37,090 nt of DNA from Eubacterium sp. (GTDB lineage Bacteria > Bacillota > Clostridia > Lachnospirales > Lachnospiraceae): the NCBI GenBank assembly GCA_024684535.1, contig JAIKWQ010000083.1:1-37090 (forward strand), written 5' to 3'. A program made the position numbers and the translations under genes. The notes beneath the pieces are model-generated. The model was not told where the DNA came from. It was given only the letters and a program-made list of their open reading frames with translations, and ran no database searches. Positions 10,076-21,824 of the stretch are shown here, piece by piece. Every line of letters begins with the position of its first letter. The stretch's first letter is position 1.

Positions 10076-11473
10076 TCAAGCCAGTCCACCCAAATCTCTC
10101 ACGTGCTTAATTCCCACCAGTTTCACACCGTCAAGTTTCAAATTGCCTCCTTTTATCACAGCCTCTTTGTTGCTCTCAGGCAAAACCACCGTTTTATAGC
10201 CTGTTTTCACAGCTTCAGCAACTCTTCTTTCTGCCTGTGAAACCGCTCGAACCTCGCCCACAAGACCTACCTCGCCGAAAAATATGGTATCTGACGCAAA
10301 TGCTTTTCCGGTGTGACTTGAGATCAATGCTGCTACCAACGCAAGATCAAGCGCAGGTTCAGAAACCTTCATCCCTCCGGCGACATTTACATAAGCATCA
10401 CAATCACCGAGCGGGAGGCCTATACGTTTTTCAAGCACGGCCATAAGCAGGTTCACTCGATTATGATCTGTACCAACCGCCGTTCTTCTGGGAACCGGAA
10501 AACTCGTTCTGCACACAAGCGCCTGGACCTCTATCAGAAATCCCCTCGTGCCCTCCATAGCACAAACCACTACGGATCCCGCTTCGTCTTCAAGCCTCCC
10601 CTGCATCATATACGCAGAAGGATCGGGAACCTCAACAAGTCCACAGTTTTGCATCTCGAAAACTCCGACTTCGTTGGTCGAGCCGAAACGATTTTTCACC
10701 CCACGCAGCAGACGGTACATCGCTGTTTTGTCACCCTCGAAATACAAAACCACATCCACCATATGCTCAAGCATTCTCGGTCCTGCCACATTTCCTTCTT
10801 TTGTCACGTGACCTACTATAAAAATGGTTATATTCCTGCTCTTTGCCAGCTGAAGGAGCGTACCTGTAACTTCCTTTACCTGACTTATGGAGCCCGGAGC
10901 AGCATCAACGCTTTCCTCGTAGACCGTCTGTATGGAATCAACTACCAACACTACAGGCTGAACTTCCTCAACCGCCCTGATAATCTCTCCCATCGCAGTC
11001 TCAGAAAAAAGCAGCATTTCATCGCCGAAATCTCCGATTCTGTCCGCGCGCATTTTTATCTGACGCTCCGATTCCTCACCGGATACGTACAATGTCCTGA
11101 TTCCTTTTTTCGAAAGAAGTCTGACTGTCTGCAAAAGAAGTGTAGATTTACCGATTCCCGGATCTCCTCCGACCAGAACAAGCGACCCCGGAACCAAGCC
11201 GCCGCCCAAAACCCTGTCAAACTCATCAAGTCCTACCGGGATTCTCTCATCATCAGATGTTTTTACATCAGATATATTGAGCGGTTTTTTCGCCTGCTGA
11301 ACGCCTGCCGCCTTCAGTCTTGAGTACGTAACCGCCTTTGATTTAAGCTTTGCCGCCTGTCCTGCCGGCGCCTCAACAAGTGTATTCCACGCTTTGCATC
11401 CGGGACACTGCCCCTGCCATTTTGTAACTTCAGTCCCACATTCCCTGCAAAAAAACAGCTGTTTTTCCTTCAT
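10076..11473 (-). CDS. radA: DNA repair protein RadA (Sms)
   Basis: 'FFCRECGTEVTKWQGQCPGCKAWNT' zinc motif, Walker A 'GGDPGIGKST', 'KNRFGSTNEVGVFEM' motif, C-terminal Lon-protease-like domain. Confidence 0.97.
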   Translation of the reverse strand: MKEKQLFFCRECGTEVTKWQGQCPGCKAWNTLVEAPAGQAAKLKSKAVTYSRLKAAGVQQAKKPLNISDVKTSDDERIPVGLDEFDRVLGGGLVPGSLVLVGGDPGIGKSTLLLQTVRLLSKKGIRTLYVSGEESERQIKMRADRIGDFGDEMLLFSETAMGEIIRAVEEVQPVVLVVDSIQTVYEESVDAAPGSISQVKEVTGTLLQLAKSRNITIFIVGHVTKEGNVAGPRMLEHMVDVVLYFEGDKTAMYRLLRGVKNRFGSTNEVGVFEMQNCGLVEVPDPSAYMMQGRLEDEAGSVVVCAMEGTRGFLIEVQALVCRTSFPVPRRTAVGTDHNRVNLLMAVLEKRIGLPLGDCDAYVNVAGGMKVSEPALDLALVAALISSHTGKAFASDTIFFGEVGLVGEVRAVSQAERRVAEAVKTGYKTVVLPESNKEAVIKGGNLKLDGVKLVGIKHVRDLGGLA

Positions 11474-14169
11474 CGGCCATCACCTATAATATCTTTCTCT
11501 ACAAATACAAGGCTGAAAGAATTCAAACCGCAGTTAATAGCAACAGCAGTTGATGCTTCCTGAAAAATAACCCGATCGAATCCACCCCTGTCATCAATTC
11601 TATCCTGTATCCACTGCATATCTTCCGGATTCAATCCGACGTGATTAACTATCAAAAGTTTCCTGTCAATCGACGACAAATCTCTGAGCGCGGACTTGAT
11701 ATATTTTTTCCATGCTCTTCTCTTGCTTCCGATATAAAGCTTGTGAATCCTCATTTTATTTTTTCTTAATTCCACAACAGGCCTGAGGCTTAAGGATTTG
11801 ACGACATTATATGTACTCTTTCTGATTTGGCCCGCTACAGCCAGCTGCTCAAGCGAACCGACCAAATACTGAGATTTAATCTTCTTTTTCAGATTATCAA
11901 GTTCCTGAATGATTTTTTCAGGCCCGTCACCGGCACTCGCCATCTCACATGCTTTGATAACCAAAAGTCCTGCTGCACCGCCAAAGTGTTCACTGTCATA
12001 TACAGTTACGTTCTCAAACGTCTTTGACGCCTCTACCGCTGCAGGATAACTGGACTTTTTGACTCCGGATGCCAGCGAAATATGAATGATATTTCTCGTA
12101 TCACGAAGATTATCCGCGAAAAATGACTCAAACCTCTCCGGCTCTATAGGTCTTACCGTTGTGGGTTTATTCAATTCAAACATGTAATCAAGAATTCCAT
12201 ATGAGTTTATATCTATCATATCGCGGAAAAGACCGTCTTTTGTGTCGATTCTTACAGGAATGATAGGAATATTGTATTTTCTTTCAAATTCTTTCGGGAT
12301 CGATGATACACTATCTGTTGTAATAGTAACCACTGATCGCATCCTGTGCTCATCTCTCCATAGTTTACTCTTATCTTTTATATCCTCTTTCTCATCTGCA
12401 ATAGTGACAATATTTCTCGGGAGCTGCTTCAACAGTTCTTCCTCAAGCGCTCTTCCGCTAACAGGCTTAACCACATATCCGTCAAAGCCCTCTCTCGCAT
12501 ACAGAGCCGCATTGTCACCTCCGGCATTTGCAGTCAGAACAACCACTTTTGAATCTTTGCACATTCCACCTGTCTGAGTCCTGATTCTGTGGAAGCACTC
12601 GATTCCGTCCATTCCCGGCATCTTGTGGTCCATAAATATCACATGAAACTCATTTTCAAGCGTTTTTTCAAGCGCTTCTTCTCCGTTCGATACCGTAGTC
12701 ACCTGGACTCTGGTTTCCCTGAGAAGTTTTGCTACAACCATAAGGTTTGCCGGTGTATCATCTACCACCAACACCTTCGCTTCAGGCGCTGTGAAGCTTG
12801 ACCTGTAACGGGTCTGTGAAACGCTGACATGTTTTTCATCAAGATCTATCTCTCCAACCTTCTCTTCACCTGATTTTTTCTGAGGTATCTCGATAATGAA
12901 AGTTGAACCCTTCGTGTAAACACTGTTTACAGTTATTTTTCCTCCCATCATATCCACAAACTGCTTAACTATGGACAGTCCGAGACCGGTACCCTCTATC
13001 ATATTATTCTTATCTTCGTCTATTCGCTTAAACGCATCAAAAAGCACCGGGATACTCTCTTTATGTATTCCTATTCCGGTATCCGTTACGGTAAATATAG
13101 TATTTACCGTATCTGCATCCAGCTCCTCACAATGAACGGTAAGTGTGACAGACCCCTGTTTGGTATACTTAACAGCGTTGTTCAGGACGTTGATAAGAAT
13201 CTGCTCCATTCTCATCTGATCTCCTATCATTTCTCTGGGAAGCTCAGGTGATATATCCACTATAAACTTCAGATTCTTTTCTTTTGCACGAACAAGAATC
13301 ATCCTTGCAACATCCGCAACCATATCCTTTGTAAAATAAGGACTGTTCACAAGCTCCATCTGCCCGGACTGGAATTTGGACATATCCAGAATATCATTGA
13401 TCAGATGCAAAAGCATCTTGCCCGCAGCCTGTATGTTTTCAGCATCTTCATTGATTTCATCCGAAGCATTTTCACGAAGAATCATCTCATTCAGACCGAT
13501 TATAGTATTAATCGGTGTTCTGATTTCATGGCTCATGCTTGAGAAAAATCTGTTTTGCGCCTTGTTCAGTTCATCGATTTCATTTTTCTGATTTTTGGCC
13601 GTTTCATTCTCTTTGCGGTACAAAACAGTCTGAAGAGTGATCATCAGAATCAATATGAAGCAAACCAGGAAAAATGAAGCGAGCGAATCCTGAAATGCTG
13701 TCTCCTCCGTATGCGGAAGCGTAAGCGCAGGATAGTTTGCGTAGAGATAGTATATTACACCAACCACAACAGCCTCGCAAGAAAGGAAAATAATTCTTGG
13801 CTTTCCTCTCAAACACAAACTGATATACATGGCATCAAATACATTCCAGATAGCAGCGCCTCCATGTATCGCGCCGCTGGTGAAAAAATTGACCGGCAAA
13901 AATATAAAAACAAGAATAAATGCGACAACATACGAAACGGCAATGATATGATTCGTCTTGAACCCTATGATTGTGAGGGCGAGAAAAACAACAAAGGAAA
14001 TGCCGCAAACCACAACCGACTCGAGATTTTCTCCGATAATCGGTCCACAGATTCCGGCCAGAAAAATGCCGAAAAGAGCGATTACCGCAAGGAACATAAA
14101 CAATCTTTCCCTGATATCGATATCGCTGTTTCCCAGATATCTTCTGATTTTTCTGTATGTTTCCTTCAT
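11470..14169 (-). CDS. Membrane hybrid histidine kinase (HisKA-HATPase-REC) with C-terminal DegV/FakB-like domain
   Basis: N-terminal TM helices; 'SSMSHEIRTPINTIIGL' (H214); 'NVLNNAVKYT'; 'DTGIGI'; 'GTGLGLSIVKQF'; REC 'VLVVDDTPANLMVVAKLL...IFMDHKMPGMDG' (D514); residues ~612-893 DegV-like 'VVTITTDSVSSIPKEFERKYNIPIIPVRI...ISLASGVKKSSYPAAVEA...VTVYDSEHFGGAAGLLVIKACEMASAG...SLEQLAVAGQIRKSTYNVVKSLSLRPVVELRKNKM'. Stop overlaps radA start (ATGA). Confidence 0.92.
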   Translation of the reverse strand: MKETYRKIRRYLGNSDIDIRERLFMFLAVIALFGIFLAGICGPIIGENLESVVVCGISFVVFLALTIIGFKTNHIIAVSYVVAFILVFIFLPVNFFTSGAIHGGAAIWNVFDAMYISLCLRGKPRIIFLSCEAVVVGVIYYLYANYPALTLPHTEETAFQDSLASFFLVCFILILMITLQTVLYRKENETAKNQKNEIDELNKAQNRFFSSMSHEIRTPINTIIGLNEMILRENASDEINEDAENIQAAGKMLLHLINDILDMSKFQSGQMELVNSPYFTKDMVADVARMILVRAKEKNLKFIVDISPELPREMIGDQMRMEQILINVLNNAVKYTKQGSVTLTVHCEELDADTVNTIFTVTDTGIGIHKESIPVLFDAFKRIDEDKNNMIEGTGLGLSIVKQFVDMMGGKITVNSVYTKGSTFIIEIPQKKSGEEKVGEIDLDEKHVSVSQTRYRSSFTAPEAKVLVVDDTPANLMVVAKLLRETRVQVTTVSNGEEALEKTLENEFHVIFMDHKMPGMDGIECFHRIRTQTGGMCKDSKVVVLTANAGGDNAALYAREGFDGYVVKPVSGRALEEELLKQLPRNIVTIADEKEDIKDKSKLWRDEHRMRSVVTITTDSVSSIPKEFERKYNIPIIPVRIDTKDGLFRDMIDINSYGILDYMFELNKPTTVRPIEPERFESFFADNLRDTRNIIHISLASGVKKSSYPAAVEASKTFENVTVYDSEHFGGAAGLLVIKACEMASAGDGPEKIIQELDNLKKKIKSQYLVGSLEQLAVAGQIRKSTYNVVKSLSLRPVVELRKNKMRIHKLYIGSKRRAWKKYIKSALRDLSSIDRKLLIVNHVGLNPEDMQWIQDRIDDRGGFDRVIFQEASTAVAINCGLNSFSLVFVEKDIIGDGR

Positions 14170-14184: not shown

Positions 14185-16734
14185 TTACTTAAGCACGCTT
14201 CTTATCGCTCCGGTAACAAAAGCAAACTTCTCCATGACAGAATCATGTTTTCTCTTTATCTCGTCAATCCTACCTTCTTTTGCATCACCCTCAAGTTCGA
14301 GCGCAAGATCAGAAAGCTCATTTGCGCCTATCATTCTTGATGTGCCTTTAAGCGCATGGATTTTTATTTCATACGCTGCTAAATCTTCGTCTTTCAGCGC
14401 ATTTTCAAGAATTTCCGTCGACTTGGACGCATCCTCCATATAATCACCCAGAATCGCTTTGTAGAGTTCCTCGTCACCCTGACAATACTCAAGTCCCTGA
14501 TCAATATCGATTCCGTAGCGCAAAAGCCTGGTAAATGAATTAGCCTGTTTTATTGAGTTGGTGTTTTCAGTCTCCTCCGGATCATTTTTCCTGATATCGG
14601 CAAGTATGCTGTCGACAGACTTCCCGGAATTCACATCTGTTTTTTCATATTTTTTCCATTCAATATTCTTGTCTTCTTTCGGTAACTCATAAGCTATCAT
14701 TGTCGGTGACAGAAGGTCTCTCAACACTCTCTCGAGCACAAACGCCTCTATCGGCTTTCCGATAAACGCATCAAATCCCTCTTTCATAAACATCTCACGC
14801 GCCGTACTGATAGTGTTCGCAGTAAGCGCAACTATCGGGGTATCGCCGTTTCTGCCCGAGAGATCCTCACGGATTTTTTTCATAGCTTCGACACCGTCCA
14901 TAACAGGCATCATGTGGTCCATAAATACTATGTCATATCTCTCTCTGCGACACATATCTATGGCTGTATGACCGGAATCAGCGGTCTGTGTCTCGATCCC
15001 GTATCTGGAGAGAATTCCTTTCGCCACAACAAGGTTAAGCGGCTCATCATCAACAACCAGCACCTTGACACCCCAGCAGTACATACGCCTTCCGGCCGCC
15101 ATCTGGTCTCCGCTTGAATTTATTGCCGATATGATCGGGAAGCAGTAGAGTGGTTTCTCGAAGAACCTGACGTGCGAATTCGGTGGAAGCTTGTATCCCC
15201 TGTCCGCGGTTATGTATACAGGAATCTTTTTCGCAACTTCTTCCATGTACTCTATATCTGTTTCATACTCTTTCATTCCTATGAAGATATGAGATATATA
15301 TGTAGTATCTATAACCTTTTTCAAGTTCTCCATACTGTCGACACCATGAAGCGCAACACCCATTCCCTTCACGACATTGGTAATCATAGAATTGTAGAAT
15401 TCGCGCACTTCCGGAACAGGATACTTTCCAAAGTAGAAAAATGCCCCGAGACTGACTTTCTCACGATTCTTGACTGACATACAGCTTGAGGCATCAACAA
15501 CTTTTTGCGGTAAACAAACGTGAACATTTGTACCTTTGCCGGGTTCTGATTCCATAGTTAAAAATCCGTTCAACGCAAGCACGAAACCTTTCACGATAAA
15601 CAGACCGAGTCCGAGTCCCCCATGCTCTCTGTTTCTGCCGGAATTGGTCTGATAGAAACCGTAGAATATATCTCGCTTTTCCTTATCATTGAGTCCCATT
15701 CCGGTATCATTTACATCTATGCACAAGTTCACTCCGTACTTGGTTTCCTGAGACGTAATCCGCACATACACGCCACCTTCATCAGTGTACTTGAGACCGT
15801 TGATTATCAGATGGCGGATAATCCTTTTCAATTTGTAAACATCTGAATTCATAACAGCCGGAATCGACGGATCCACATCCAGAACAAGCTCAAGTCTCGG
15901 TGTGATAAATGGCCTGAGCTCAGCCACCACATCGCTTAAGAGCGAAGAAATCATATAGTTTTCGGGAGTCAGAGCCATGACATCTCTGTCAAGTTCGGTG
16001 AAGTTTAGGATATCGCTCATCTGATCTGCAACTCTTCGTCCCGCATCCTGGACAGCCAGCAGATCCTGGCGGTTTTTCTCATTTGTTTCCCTATCAAGAC
16101 AAACCTCCGTCAATCCGATAACAGCATTAACCGGGGTGCGTATCTCGTGAGAGGCATTTGCCAGAAAGTCATCAAGGCGTCTGGTCACACCGTAAAGATC
16201 TTCAATCTCAGAAGATGTTTCTTTGACTATTCTATCCCATTTTCTGATGATAGCGCAAGAGGTTCCACCTATAACAATAATCATTACCGAATGCAGAATG
16301 ACGCGAGCTACGGTTTCACTATTTATCGCACCATTTTCGATAATATACATAGTTATGGAATACCCTGCGGTAACAAAATATGTGGTCATAGCGACGTAAA
16401 TAACGCCTCTCATCGCCGTCACTGCCGAAACCGCTATGATAACTGCCATAATTACAGCCAGATCAACATAACTTGACTTGTGAATTCCGTAGAAGAAAAA
16501 TTCCAACATAGTAACTGCCGTACATATCCAGATTCTTCCCTTCGGTGGGATTTTCCCCTGAATATGCAAGCCCCATGAAACAGCGACTCCCAACACAATA
16601 GGCACCAAAACCCAGAGCTCCCACGACTGCGTGAACGCAGCAACAATCGTGATAGCTGAGAAAATTGTGTATCCGATAAGAATTATCAGATGTGCGTGTT
16701 GAAAGAATCTGTTTTCTTTTTTGGTATTTTTCAT
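14185..16734 (-). CDS. Membrane hybrid histidine kinase: HisKA-HATPase-degenerate REC-REC-Hpt
   Basis: 'LANASHEIRTPVNAVIGL' (H196), 'HLIINGLKYTDEGG', 'NDTGMGL', 'GGLGLGLFIVKGF', REC 'VLVVDDEPLNLVVAKGIL...IVFMDHMMPVMDG...GKPI', Hpt 'KIHALKGTSRMIGANEL'. Confidence 0.93.
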   Translation of the reverse strand: MKNTKKENRFFQHAHLIILIGYTIFSAITIVAAFTQSWELWVLVPIVLGVAVSWGLHIQGKIPPKGRIWICTAVTMLEFFFYGIHKSSYVDLAVIMAVIIAVSAVTAMRGVIYVAMTTYFVTAGYSITMYIIENGAINSETVARVILHSVMIIVIGGTSCAIIRKWDRIVKETSSEIEDLYGVTRRLDDFLANASHEIRTPVNAVIGLTEVCLDRETNEKNRQDLLAVQDAGRRVADQMSDILNFTELDRDVMALTPENYMISSLLSDVVAELRPFITPRLELVLDVDPSIPAVMNSDVYKLKRIIRHLIINGLKYTDEGGVYVRITSQETKYGVNLCIDVNDTGMGLNDKEKRDIFYGFYQTNSGRNREHGGLGLGLFIVKGFVLALNGFLTMESEPGKGTNVHVCLPQKVVDASSCMSVKNREKVSLGAFFYFGKYPVPEVREFYNSMITNVVKGMGVALHGVDSMENLKKVIDTTYISHIFIGMKEYETDIEYMEEVAKKIPVYITADRGYKLPPNSHVRFFEKPLYCFPIISAINSSGDQMAAGRRMYCWGVKVLVVDDEPLNLVVAKGILSRYGIETQTADSGHTAIDMCRRERYDIVFMDHMMPVMDGVEAMKKIREDLSGRNGDTPIVALTANTISTAREMFMKEGFDAFIGKPIEAFVLERVLRDLLSPTMIAYELPKEDKNIEWKKYEKTDVNSGKSVDSILADIRKNDPEETENTNSIKQANSFTRLLRYGIDIDQGLEYCQGDEELYKAILGDYMEDASKSTEILENALKDEDLAAYEIKIHALKGTSRMIGANELSDLALELEGDAKEGRIDEIKRKHDSVMEKFAFVTGAIRSVLK

Positions 16735-16752: not shown

Positions 16753-18219
16753 TCACTGACCGTTTTTTTGTCTGAATTCTTCTTTCATTTTTTTCTTGTT
16801 TTCATACATCTTTGCATCTGCTCTCTTGAATACATCCTCAACTGTAGCATCATTATTTTTGTCATATAGAGCAAATCCCAACGCCGCAGACACCTTTTCC
16901 CATGGTTCATAAACCTGACTTTCCTGTCTGTGCTCAATTGATTCGGCAAACTTGCGAGATATAAGATTTATATTTCTGTAATCAGTGTTCTCAAGAATCA
17001 CCGCAAACTCATCTCCGCCCACCCTGTAAACAGGCGAATGCTTGAAATGGTTGCATATGATAGAAGCAATAGTGTTAATAGAAACATCACCCTTGTCGTG
17101 ACCATAGGTATCATTGATACGCTTCAGATCATTTAAATCTATAATAACAATTCCAAATTGCGCAAGATTTTTGGTGATACTATCCGAAAGCCTGATAGTA
17201 TCCCGCTCATACGCACGTTTGTTGCGCAATCCTGTCTGCGGATCTTTCGTAGCCATCTGAGTCATTTCCTGAGCTTCTTCTCTGGATTGCATCAACTGTT
17301 CTCTGGTCTTCACAAGGTTTGTTATGTATCTGTTCAAATCCTTCTCCATCTGTTTCATGGAGTCTGATAGTTCTCTGATCTCATCTCTTGATGACACAAC
17401 AACATCCGAGAACCTGGTGTTCTCAGCTTTATTTTCAGCATTGCAATACTCTTCAGCAGCGCTTGAAAGTCTTTTGATAGGTTTAACGATAAATCTGTTT
17501 ACAAGAAGGAATCCGATGATGCATATGACAACAGTCAGTGCCAGGAATGAGATAAGCGTCAGGTAAAAATAACTCTTCTGCTCACCTCTGACATCATTCA
17601 TCGATATGTCTAAACACGCATAACATATAACTTCGTCATTTTCTCCATACACAGGAACACCGGCCGTCAAAAGCCAGCCATACTCTTCTGTGTCCGTAAT
17701 ATACGGAGGATAGCCTCTTGCAGGATTTGTGAGAGACTCCTTGTTGACATCATATACCGGATCAAAACATCCCGGCGGACACGCATCTTCCACTGCAGCA
17801 TCCACCAGATAAATGGCATTTTTAGTCGGTACATCTATATAAACCAAATACATACAATCAACGTCTGTTTCATTCTGAACAGGCGTCAGGGTATCCAAGA
17901 TCTGCGTAAACTCAGGCATTTTTTTGACTTCGTCAAATCTTTCTATATACTCGTCAAATTCGGGACTACCCCACTCCTCGCTTCCTACCTTTTCATCTGT
18001 AGTACTGTATATGAGTTTGATCTTATCACGTACAGCTTTCGCAGCTACAGGATCCACCATATGTGATATGGCAGTTGCCAACTGTCTGGCATTATCCTTG
18101 TAGTTATTATCTATGGTATCATTAATTATACGGCTGCTCACAAAAAGACCCATGCTGCTCATAAGCAGCGCGAAAACAACGATCATTATGATTGCTTTTG
18201 TGCGTAGCGAAAATCTCAT
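16753..18219 (-). CDS. Membrane diguanylate cyclase: extracytoplasmic Cache-like sensor, HAMP, GGDEF
   Basis: Two TM helices flanking an extracytoplasmic region; HAMP-like 'NRFIVKPIKRLSSAAEEY'; 'DPQTGLRNKRAYERD'; 'YRVGGDEFAVILENTD'. RBS ggagg-N7-ATG. Confidence 0.92.
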   Translation of the reverse strand: MRFSLRTKAIIMIVVFALLMSSMGLFVSSRIINDTIDNNYKDNARQLATAISHMVDPVAAKAVRDKIKLIYSTTDEKVGSEEWGSPEFDEYIERFDEVKKMPEFTQILDTLTPVQNETDVDCMYLVYIDVPTKNAIYLVDAAVEDACPPGCFDPVYDVNKESLTNPARGYPPYITDTEEYGWLLTAGVPVYGENDEVICYACLDISMNDVRGEQKSYFYLTLISFLALTVVICIIGFLLVNRFIVKPIKRLSSAAEEYCNAENKAENTRFSDVVVSSRDEIRELSDSMKQMEKDLNRYITNLVKTREQLMQSREEAQEMTQMATKDPQTGLRNKRAYERDTIRLSDSITKNLAQFGIVIIDLNDLKRINDTYGHDKGDVSINTIASIICNHFKHSPVYRVGGDEFAVILENTDYRNINLISRKFAESIEHRQESQVYEPWEKVSAALGFALYDKNNDATVEDVFKRADAKMYENKKKMKEEFRQKNGQ

Positions 18220-18286: not shown

Positions 18287-20362
18287 TTATTTGTTCCTGC
18301 GCGTCATCAAGCTTCCAAGAATAAATCCTATGACAAGCGTCACGATACCGACAATAATCATACCGCCATAGTTGTTTCCTCCGAAAACCGTCCCTAAGAA
18401 CGAAGCCTTTTTCCCGTCATTAAACACCGGTTGAATTACCGAGTTTCTCGAACCTGCTTTTTCAGTAAACTCCGTTGATGACCCAAGTGACTTGCCTGAT
18501 TTGGACTGCCATTCGACGAAGTCACTTTTATTTTCATCCGGTATAATAAGTTTGATTTCGTAACCATCGGGCGCAAAAATAACCCTGACATCATCGTTGG
18601 TCGCGTGATACATAATCGTGTTTTTTTCATCCATTTCAAGAGTAAATAGATATATCTGACTCTGTCCGTAGCTGACTTCCGGATCAGAACAGTATGTCAT
18701 GCTTTTTCCTTTAAACTTCGCAACTATCTCGCCATTTTTATTTTTGACCTCACCGGCCACGCGGTCAGGATTTCCTACGGTAACACCTGTATCAAGTCTG
18801 CTATCCGTAATTTTTGATGCTCCTTCATAGAAACTGTCACTCTTTTTTATAAGTTCAAAAAGACTGTCTCCCACGTGCGGCGCAACAAGTGTTTTGATGT
18901 TTAACATGATTGTTCCGAGCGCGCGTAAACACATATTATCATCTTTATCTGTAGAATAATCCGCATGCAATATATCAAGCGCAAGATGCACGATTGTTTT
19001 TTTATTTGCTTTGAGCGTTTCATAACTTGTTGCAGTGAGCGTATCCTTGAGCGGCTTGTCCACCAGACTCCAAAGGCTGTCATAAAAATCATCTATTTCT
19101 TTCTGCTTACTGAAGTGTTTGTTTATCCCATCTTTCAAACACATCAAAAGATTAAATGCAATTGATACAACTTCTTTATTCTCCTTCAAGCTCTTTTTCA
19201 GTTTGGTTTCAAGAGTTTTTATCTGTTCTTTTGAAAGAGACGTTACAATTCCAACAACATTTGCAATAGCATTCTGCGCGGTAGTCTCCTCTATCTTCTT
19301 CTCCGCGTAGGATGCTCTGTCCGGGAATACCTTTTTAAATAATGTCTCAAAATACCCAAGGAAATCCTTTGTTTCATCGGATGCTCCCTCCACTTTCTTA
19401 TACGCGAGGATTGGATTCTTTTTCAACAGTGCATTCTCAACCGTCGCAGAAAGGTTTAAATATTTCTGATCAATTTTGTATGAATCTTTGATTGTCTCAA
19501 CCACTCCATAGTGTCCAAACCCGAGATAAGAAGGCACAAACCATGGAATAGGATCAGATGAGCTCTCCACACAATGAATATTATTATACTTTCCAAAAAG
19601 CTTTTCTGTTCCACAAATTCTTGGTGCCTCAAAACAGTATGCAAAAACCTTTGACTCCGTCATAGCCAAACCACTGACATCCTTTGCTACAAGCTCAGCA
19701 ACAGCTGCGCTCCTGGAGTAACCCGTAACCCAAAAGACAATATTTTTCTCATCTCTAAGATATGTTTGCACATAGTTCCCCGCAGTCGAAAGCACCTTGT
19801 TTGCGCTTGATTTGAAACCTTCCGCATCACCTGAGCTTCCTACCAGGAAGTTGTTTTCCCACTCTGCTTCGTATCCCAAACCGCGTATAGCTATGGGGAC
19901 GATAACCTTGTCACCGACCTTTTTGTGCGCGATTGCAAAAGCAATTGAATCTGATGTCGGCCTGCTCATATAATCCTTATTTACCGAAATATCAGTGTAA
20001 CCGGTATCCGTAAGTAGTTGTCTCACTCCAAGCGATTTTTCCGTATAATCCTTATCTCCGCCTCTATGAAGATTGCCTGCCGACAAAGCAAGACACAAAG
20101 ACATCGACGCCAGATGTTCATCATACTTTCCCGGATCTCCGTCAAAATATCCGTCACTGTAGAAAAATTGATCATATATGTCCTTGTTTTTATTATACGA
20201 AGGATACAAAAATTTTCCCGTAATTACAGACGAGTTTCCAACCTTTGTTTCCTCCGTGATCGCAGCATTTGCCGTACCGGCTATAAATCCCACCGGCATA
20301 GATAATGCGATAACAAGAAGCATAAAAATGCTCCATAACCTTTTAAATAATCTATTTTTCAT
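18287..20362 (-). CDS. Secreted, C-terminally membrane-anchored lipase class 3-like alpha/beta hydrolase
   Basis: Signal peptide; 'VFWVTGYSRSAAVAELVAKDVSG' nucleophile-elbow-like GxSxS; C-terminal 'GGMIIVGIVTLVIGFILGSLMTRRNK' TM anchor. Confidence 0.7.
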   Translation of the reverse strand: MKNRLFKRLWSIFMLLVIALSMPVGFIAGTANAAITEETKVGNSSVITGKFLYPSYNKNKDIYDQFFYSDGYFDGDPGKYDEHLASMSLCLALSAGNLHRGGDKDYTEKSLGVRQLLTDTGYTDISVNKDYMSRPTSDSIAFAIAHKKVGDKVIVPIAIRGLGYEAEWENNFLVGSSGDAEGFKSSANKVLSTAGNYVQTYLRDEKNIVFWVTGYSRSAAVAELVAKDVSGLAMTESKVFAYCFEAPRICGTEKLFGKYNNIHCVESSSDPIPWFVPSYLGFGHYGVVETIKDSYKIDQKYLNLSATVENALLKKNPILAYKKVEGASDETKDFLGYFETLFKKVFPDRASYAEKKIEETTAQNAIANVVGIVTSLSKEQIKTLETKLKKSLKENKEVVSIAFNLLMCLKDGINKHFSKQKEIDDFYDSLWSLVDKPLKDTLTATSYETLKANKKTIVHLALDILHADYSTDKDDNMCLRALGTIMLNIKTLVAPHVGDSLFELIKKSDSFYEGASKITDSRLDTGVTVGNPDRVAGEVKNKNGEIVAKFKGKSMTYCSDPEVSYGQSQIYLFTLEMDEKNTIMYHATNDDVRVIFAPDGYEIKLIIPDENKSDFVEWQSKSGKSLGSSTEFTEKAGSRNSVIQPVFNDGKKASFLGTVFGGNNYGGMIIVGIVTLVIGFILGSLMTRRNK

Positions 20363-20402: not shown

Positions 20403-21824
20403 TCATTGCGTAACAACCGATCTCGGCTGACCGTCAAGCCACGCTCTGATACTTTCTGCCACGTCACTTACGAGCCTTTTCCTGGCTTCAAGCGGAGCCC
20501 ACGCCATATGCGGTGTGAGTACAAGTTTTTCCTTTCCGTCATCTCCACTATGATTTTCCATATATTTCATAAGCGGACTGTCTGCGGGAAGCGGTTCTTT
20601 TTCATAGACATCCAATGCCGCACCTGCAATAAGTCCGTCTTCAATCGCCCTTACCAAATCCCCTTCCACAACGATCGGACCTCTACCGAGATTCAAAAAT
20701 ACACCGCCGGGCTTACATTTTTTAAATGCTTTATAATTCATAAGCCCACGCGTTTTTTCGTTCAAAGGCGCGTGACAGGAAATCACATCGCTTGTTGCCA
20801 AAAGTCTCTCGAAATCCAACTGTTTGTACGGCACATCATATGTGGAACCACTTGCGGAATAATAAACTACATCCATACCGAAAGCTGTTGCGACTTCCGC
20901 CACCCGACGCCCTATGGCACCGAGTCCTATGATTCCGAATCTTTTTCCGTTTAATTCGTGAAACTCTCTCCCCATATGCGTAAATGATTCCTGCGAAGAG
21001 TATTCGCCTGAATTTACATAGTTACTGTAATATCCAATCTTTTCCCAGAGGGACAAAAGCAATGCAAACGTATGCTGAACCACCGCTTCCGTCGAATACC
21101 CTCTTGAATTGGTAACTGTTATTCCTCGCGAAGTACAGTAATCTATATCGATATTGTTGTATCCCGTTGCAGCCTCGCAAATAAGTTTGATATTCTGCGC
21201 ATCTTTCATCACGCTCTCATCGATGATGCATTTGTTCGGCACAACTATAGTAGCATTTTTAATCCTCTCCGCAACTTTATCCTGCGGAGTATGGTCATAT
21301 GTTTTCAAATCTCCGAATTCGGAAAGCTCTTCAAAACTTACTCCGGCTGCATCCGCTTCCAAAACGACTATGGACATTTTTCCGACGGATGACGTATGTT
21401 TTTTCAGCTCACGACACAGATACTCATATCTGAGTTTTTTCTCTTCCTTGCTGAAATGGACCTCCCTGAACTGTTCAGGATTGTCCTCATACGACAGGAC
21501 TTCGTCTCCAAACTGTTCACTGGTCAGATCAAACACGTGACCGTCGACACAGTTGTAGCAATGATAATTCCCACCGGGTCTTAAGACTCCGTAAACTTCA
21601 CCGCCAAATATATCCTGTACCAGAAAAGCTGTCACTGAGCACTGGCCCAGCGTGATGTTTTCCTCACTCCACTCGGATCTGAGTCTCGGTGCGCATGAAT
21701 ACTCACACCAGATATTCAAAAGCACATCATATAGATCCTGCGGGGTAGCTATACCGGGATATTCATCGGAAACAGGAGGAACTGTCGCATCCTCCCATCC
21801 ATAAAACTTGTAAGTCTTTGACAT
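20403..21824 (-). CDS. YunG-like domain fused to D-isomer-specific 2-hydroxyacid dehydrogenase
   Basis: Residues 1-~144: 'LGQCSVTAFLVQDIFGGEVYGVLRPGGNYHCYNCVDGHVFDLTSEQF' (YunG-like). Residues ~150-473: 'GIIGLGAIGRRVAEVATAFGMDVVYY', 'LNLGRGPIVVEGDLVRAI', 'DVYEKEPLP', 'LTPHMAWAP' (dehydrogenase NAD motif, Arg/Glu/His catalytic residues). Confidence 0.88.
   Translation of the reverse strand: MSKTYKFYGWEDATVPPVSDEYPGIATPQDLYDVLLNIWCEYSCAPRLRSEWSEENITLGQCSVTAFLVQDIFGGEVYGVLRPGGNYHCYNCVDGHVFDLTSEQFGDEVLSYEDNPEQFREVHFSKEEKKLRYEYLCRELKKHTSSVGKMSIVVLEADAAGVSFEELSEFGDLKTYDHTPQDKVAERIKNATIVVPNKCIIDESVMKDAQNIKLICEAATGYNNIDIDYCTSRGITVTNSRGYSTEAVVQHTFALLLSLWEKIGYYSNYVNSGEYSSQESFTHMGREFHELNGKRFGIIGLGAIGRRVAEVATAFGMDVVYYSASGSTYDVPYKQLDFERLLATSDVISCHAPLNEKTRGLMNYKAFKKCKPGGVFLNLGRGPIVVEGDLVRAIEDGLIAGAALDVYEKEPLPADSPLMKYMENHSGDDGKEKLVLTPHMAWAPLEARKRLVSDVAESIRAWLDGQPRSVVTQ

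Follow-up and report, generated by a model that had tools for sequence, protein, structure and literature searches.

DegV/FakB proteins are fatty-acid carriers for phospholipid synthesis. What, then, is a DegV fold doing at the end of a histidine kinase? The question is raised by a gene on the minus strand of a 37,090-nucleotide stretch of DNA from Eubacterium sp. (GCA_024684535.1, contig JAIKWQ010000083.1, positions 1 to 37,090), hereafter the window. The gene, at 11470..14169, encodes an 899-aa protein in which a membrane-bound histidine kinase (HK) and a receiver domain (REC) are followed by DegV. Compared across relatives, the sequences indicate that the functional unit is larger than this protein, namely a two-gene kinase module. 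Together with structural models, they suggest that the DegV fold has been repurposed as a cytoplasmic ligand-sensing subunit of a two-kinase phosphorelay, commonly one that controls cyclic di-GMP (c-di-GMP); we put the probability of this reading at a little under 0.6.

We began with the protein itself, a single unbroken open reading frame from an ATG at 14169 to a stop at 11470. Its N-terminal membrane region (residues 1-190, 13600..14169) contains five hydrophobic helices by hydropathy; homologues have four to six, and there is no large extracytoplasmic domain. There follow a HisKA domain (residues 204-269, 13363..13560, Pfam 6.3e-18) with phospho-acceptor H214, a HATPase_c domain (residues 316-431, 12877..13224, Pfam 2.6e-28) with conserved N, G1 and G2 boxes, and a REC domain (Response_reg, residues 466-578, 12436..12774, Pfam 5e-23) with D470/D471, D514, T546 and K568. 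H214, D471, D514 and K568 are each invariant in 48/48 homologues, and the protein has the HisKA histidine, the ATP-binding boxes and the REC aspartate and lysine of a hybrid histidine kinase. The DegV domain occupies residues 614-892 (11494..12330) and covers profile positions 2-280 of 280 (Pfam E=3.6e-37), scoring 128.7 bits against PF02645 (cut-off 27) and 137.9 bits against NCBIfam TIGR00762 (cut-off 99.7). An earlier note, made from the sequence alone, had described the same unbroken 899-aa frame with its transmembrane region, HisKA H214, HATPase and REC D514, and had placed a complete DegV domain at residues ~612-893 (about 11491-12336); H214 and D514 are where it put them, and the two unusual DegV motifs that it quoted are present in the sequence.

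The assembly is in 191 contigs, and a fusion of this kind could in principle have arisen from misassembly or a frameshift. This explanation can be set aside because homologues that are full-length and in frame (33-49% identity) are found across many other genera and because the genome itself holds two more copies. The three fusions of this genome (C24, C188 and C112) are accompanied by one more DegV, located at the edge of a contig (C47). A stop or frameshift between REC and DegV, which the earlier note had named among the findings that would undo its proposal, is thereby ruled out, and the census of domain architectures that it called for showed HK-REC-DegV to be recurrent in the family.

How widespread is the architecture? 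At a threshold of E<=1e-84, 378 genomes sampled from the family yielded DegV domains of this type in 66, representing 58 of 334 genera. The named homologue records belong to assemblies of Lachnospiraceae, Butyrivibrio, Eubacterium and unclassified Clostridia, and the titles of several point to the rumen or gut. Sampling 349 genomes across the phylum (E<=1e-75) turned up frames of fused length in the window's family only; beyond it, fusions were detected in a second family of the order (G446) and in a different family of the class (G584, G658). A DegV/FakB fold is an obligate phosphorelay part in a fair share of the genomes sampled from this family, which is associated with gut and rumen. We found no published description of the HK-REC-DegV architecture among the open-licence PMC literature.

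The genomic context of these genes pointed to a larger unit. Directly upstream of the DegV gene in the window, at a distance of 15 bp, lies a second hybrid kinase gene (14185..16734, minus strand), whose 849-aa product has the order transmembrane region, HisKA, HATPase, a receiver-like segment, REC and Hpt. A hybrid kinase of this second family is directly upstream in 44/44 loci with upstream sequence (35/35 and 9/9 more), usually with a 1-bp overlap; at L038 it was confirmed by a separate check, and at L100 it is split over two genes. The partner's Hpt domain (14281..14454, motif IHALKG) is the only one of the window pair. Elsewhere this domain moves: in the absence of an Hpt on the partner, one is found at the end of the DegV protein (L099, L107/L023 and L108) or is supplied by a separate gene, downstream at L105 and upstream at L145. 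One locus, L135, has two candidate Hpts, and the phospho-accepting histidine is present in 39/39 Hpt domains. Pairwise distances of the partner's kinase core correlate with those of the DegV domain (r=0.72, 0/2000 permutations) more strongly than with those of the kinase core in the DegV protein itself (r=0.37). The layout is unusual in grouping two kinases about an Hpt that changes place; the earlier note had missed the two-gene unit and, with it, the tie of DegV to the upstream kinase and the Hpt step.

Between the HATPase and REC domains of the partner lies a conserved segment of ~145 aa (15064..15501). Its AlphaFold2 model has a predicted local distance difference test score (pLDDT) of 83, and many of its best Foldseek matches are receivers, at E values of 0.003-0.04; a comparison with REC by sequence in hhalign gave no match (probability 0.2%). 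ShkA and other hybrid kinases carry a pseudo-receiver between the catalytic and ATP-binding domain and REC (PMC7010744). The partner's segment stands at the same place and, to judge from the model, suggests a pseudo-receiver, although there is no match at the level of sequence.

Two further observations concern the kinases of this group. The partner kinases at L038:173-2917, L042:4330-7179, L043:1536-4490 and L050:4330-7227 belong to one subgroup and have acidic tails after the Hpt domain, which carry repeated short motifs of the 'MEF.PE' or 'LEFAPE' type. Transmembrane HK-REC paralogues with neither a DegV domain nor an adjacent partner kinase are encoded at L130:7642-9435, L131:6973-8826, L132:6297-8072 and L133:6905-8671.

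Which parts of the module are constant? At four loci (L110, L139, L140 and L141), an HK-REC-Hpt kinase is followed by a stand-alone DegV with Asn270 (FakB1 numbering, defined below), a soluble protein of ~290 aa, and three of the four continue with a REC-GGDEF regulator. At two others (L137 and L143), an HK-REC protein is followed by a kinase-less DegV-Hpt protein. In a DegV tree built by a quick method with SH-aLRT support only, the signalling DegVs stood apart from canonical DegVs (support 100); the four split DegVs fell outside the fused clade (support 99), and the DegV-Hpt forms fell inside it. The split forms and the tree thus point to three constant parts (partner kinase, DegV domain and an Hpt), to which the HK-REC of the DegV protein itself does not belong. 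The simplest reading of the order of events is that DegV was recruited as an independent subunit and joined once to a second HK-REC, after which Hpt was gained and HK-REC lost locally. The comparative data offer a stepwise route from a carrier through an unfused signalling subunit to a fused kinase.

Two loci carry broken frames: at L138:5184-7851 the HK-REC and DegV parts are in different frames, and at L144 a stop lies within the DegV domain; sequencing error and decay are indistinguishable in both.

We then asked whether the domain has kept the fold, and the function, of FakB. When the PDB was searched by sequence, FakB1 came up together with further DegV proteins (best E=9.3e-18). AlphaFold, given an alignment of 48 sequences, modelled the domain with a pLDDT of 92 and a predicted template-modelling score of 0.89, and the comparison with FakB structures that the earlier note had proposed gave DegV/FakB proteins as the closest PDB structures in Foldseek (template-modelling scores 0.80-0.90; TMt 0.84-0.90). 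The fold (template-modelling scores 0.78-0.90) and the tunnel segments are shared with FakB/DegV proteins such as Staphylococcus aureus FakB1 (PDB 5uto) and Bacillus subtilis DegV (3fys). The tunnel-roof segments 27-62, 164-185 and 264-273 have lengths of 35, 22 and 10 in the window copy, and every fused member examined has retained the tunnel-forming segments with little or no shortening.

The functional residues tell a different story. In FakB1, the fatty-acid carboxylate is held by Thr62, Ser95, Ser171 and His270, Arg173 is required for Fak catalysis, Arg205 contacts FakA and the membrane, and Trp180 inserts into the membrane (PMC8892158; PMC9136124). Our numbering follows chain 6mh9_A, an A121I mutant that is one off from the published numbers. 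The window copy has K704 at position 95, Q781 at 173, I813 at 205 and N879 at 270; its Thr62 column varies with the alignment, being V in MAFFT and T in phmmer. General stand-alone DegVs of the order (n=29) keep His270 in 28, Ser95 in 28, Arg173 in 29 and Arg or Lys at 205 in 29, whereas among fused domains (n=49) position 270 is Asn in 42, Arg173 is kept in 16 and Ser95 in 15, and F, I, V, L or M predominate at position 205. In a count over 50 members of the fused clade, Asn stands at 270 in 43. The stand-alone DegVs nearest the fused set keep S95 in 18/18, R173 in 17/18, R205 in 16/18 and H270 in 16/18, the exceptions at 205 and 270 being L110, a split protein, and L126, a FakA-type fusion, both of which are counted here. 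The lost sites of the fused set converge on a common new pattern, with Asn270 and Gly206, and the position of Trp180 is mostly polar.

Could the fused DegV nevertheless act as a FakB, its delivery of acyl chains to FakA regulated by the kinase? The fold is that of FakB, and the genome encodes one FakA, which the earlier note had suggested looking for, and one PlsX-type gene. The genome also encodes a separate canonical-type DegV (L001), and the head-group, catalytic and FakA-contact residues are those that the fused domains have lost, Ser95 and His270 among them in the window copy. We therefore rejected this role, which we regard as very improbable. The earlier note had read the fusion as tying a fatty-acid-binding module to a phosphorelay; a complete DegV fold is indeed tied to one, and a FakB-like acyl carrier is the part of that idea that fell. 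The note's suspicion that ligand or partner differ from those of FakB was well placed, given the missing carboxylate-holding and FakA-contact residues. More generally, a protein annotated as 'DegV family' need not function with a fatty-acid kinase.

Two groups of DegV proteins outside the module were noted alongside. The protein at L126:5243-7015 (591 aa) joins DAK2, the FakA middle domain and DegV (Pfam), with DegV in the place of FakA_C and Asn at position 270. At L118:5452-9584 and L122:5102-9340, an operon encodes aminopeptidase P, a stand-alone DegV, an OmpR-type response regulator and a histidine kinase; these DegVs keep the canonical FakB residues and were excluded from membership.

The main rival to a sensor is a scaffold: the DegV domain may have lost ligand binding and serve as a docking domain that brings together the partner kinase, Hpt and the REC of the DegV protein. 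The loss of catalytic and head-group residues, the direct DegV-Hpt fusions and the obligatory adjacency to the partner kinase would all fit. A known docking domain with the DegV fold, FakA_C, has lost its tunnel-forming segments (PMC9136124), whereas the fused members have kept theirs, and the shared substitutions at the lost sites are not those of random decay. We consider a scaffold without ligand rather doubtful on this evidence. A third possibility is that DegV is an output, taking up or releasing lipid under control of phosphorylation of the adjacent REC. Its place C-terminal of REC in the fused form is the usual one for an output domain, but the split DegV proteins have no REC, a relay domain follows DegV in HK-REC-DegV-Hpt proteins, the Trp180 position is mostly polar in the fused set, and Arg205, with its contacts to membrane and FakA, is lost; we judge an output unlikely.

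As a ligand-sensing subunit, the DegV domain would bind a hydrophobic ligand, probably a lipid or another amphipathic molecule, rather than a FakA-bound fatty acid, and would determine how far the partner kinase/Hpt pair is phosphorylated. The fused HK-REC would provide a second membrane input onto the same Hpt, and Hpt would hand the phosphate to a response regulator that controls c-di-GMP or is of the PP2C type. Regulators of these kinds commonly adjoin the module in relatives, as REC-HD_5, REC-GGDEF, REC-GGDEF-REC, REC-GGDEF-REC-HD_5 or REC-SpoIIE proteins. The REC-HD_5 regulators, including that beside the C188 copy of the same genome, have intact HHE-DG-GYP motifs, and the GGDEF motifs of adjoining regulators are likewise intact. 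The REC-SpoIIE form is adjacent at L042, where the partner kinase is tailed, and also at L040 and L048. Direct tests of ligand and output are feasible, with the split forms providing a soluble DegV and the neighbouring regulators intact HD-GYP or GGDEF motifs.

Three observations weigh against this sensor reading. Shared descent may partly explain the correlation of distances between the partner and the DegV domain. The window locus has no adjacent output gene bearing a REC domain, only a HAMP-GGDEF protein. Finally, the C-terminal motif of the window copy, NCGLNSF, is more degenerate than that of its relatives (NCGPGTF) and than that of its nearest relative, L036; therefore, the window copy may bind its ligand weakly or not at all, and is perhaps a weak example of the class. 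The HAMP-GGDEF gene (16753..18219, minus strand), separated by 18 bp from the partner kinase gene and upstream of it, encodes a membrane protein with an intact VGGDEF motif and no REC (Pfam and motif); it is likely the c-di-GMP component at this locus.

Among the closest known layouts is that of RpfC, a five-transmembrane HK-REC-Hpt kinase that senses a fatty acid (PMC5391125), and its partner RpfG. The likeness, a multi-transmembrane HK-REC-Hpt kinase next to a REC-HD-GYP regulator, is seen in relatives and at the C188 copy of the same genome, whereas the window neighbour is HAMP-GGDEF. RpfC senses the diffusible signal factor through a 22-residue N-terminal segment, unlike the module with its two kinases and DegV domain, whose signal and synthase are not known, no rpfF homology search having been made. 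We treat the resemblance as an analogy and claim no membership. It is possible, and we suggest it tentatively, that in Lachnospiraceae-type gut bacteria the module represents a new class of intracellular receptor for lipids or lipid-like molecules, in which a DegV stripped of its FakB residues entered an RpfC-like operon, was later fused, and now acts in a two-kinase relay that sets c-di-GMP, possibly within fatty-acid-type cell-cell signalling. TorS, BarA and LuxQ share the HisKA-HATPase-REC core and gave the best NCBIfam scores, all under each model's cut-off; they differ from the module, which has a C-terminal DegV and an obligate paired kinase. FakB/DegV proteins, in turn, differ from the module's DegV in having His270, Ser95, Arg173 and Arg205, and the latter belongs to a signalling operon.

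The remaining neighbours lie outside the conserved module. The radA gene (10076..11473, minus strand) overlaps the DegV gene by 4 bp at the window locus only. Just upstream of the GGDEF gene, 18287-20362 encodes a class-3 lipase-like protein with a signal-like N terminus and a C-terminal hydrophobic anchor. We rejected both as functional partners, since neither is conserved beside other copies of the module. Further along, a single open reading frame at 20403-21824 joins a YunG domain at the N terminus to a 2-hydroxyacid dehydrogenase.

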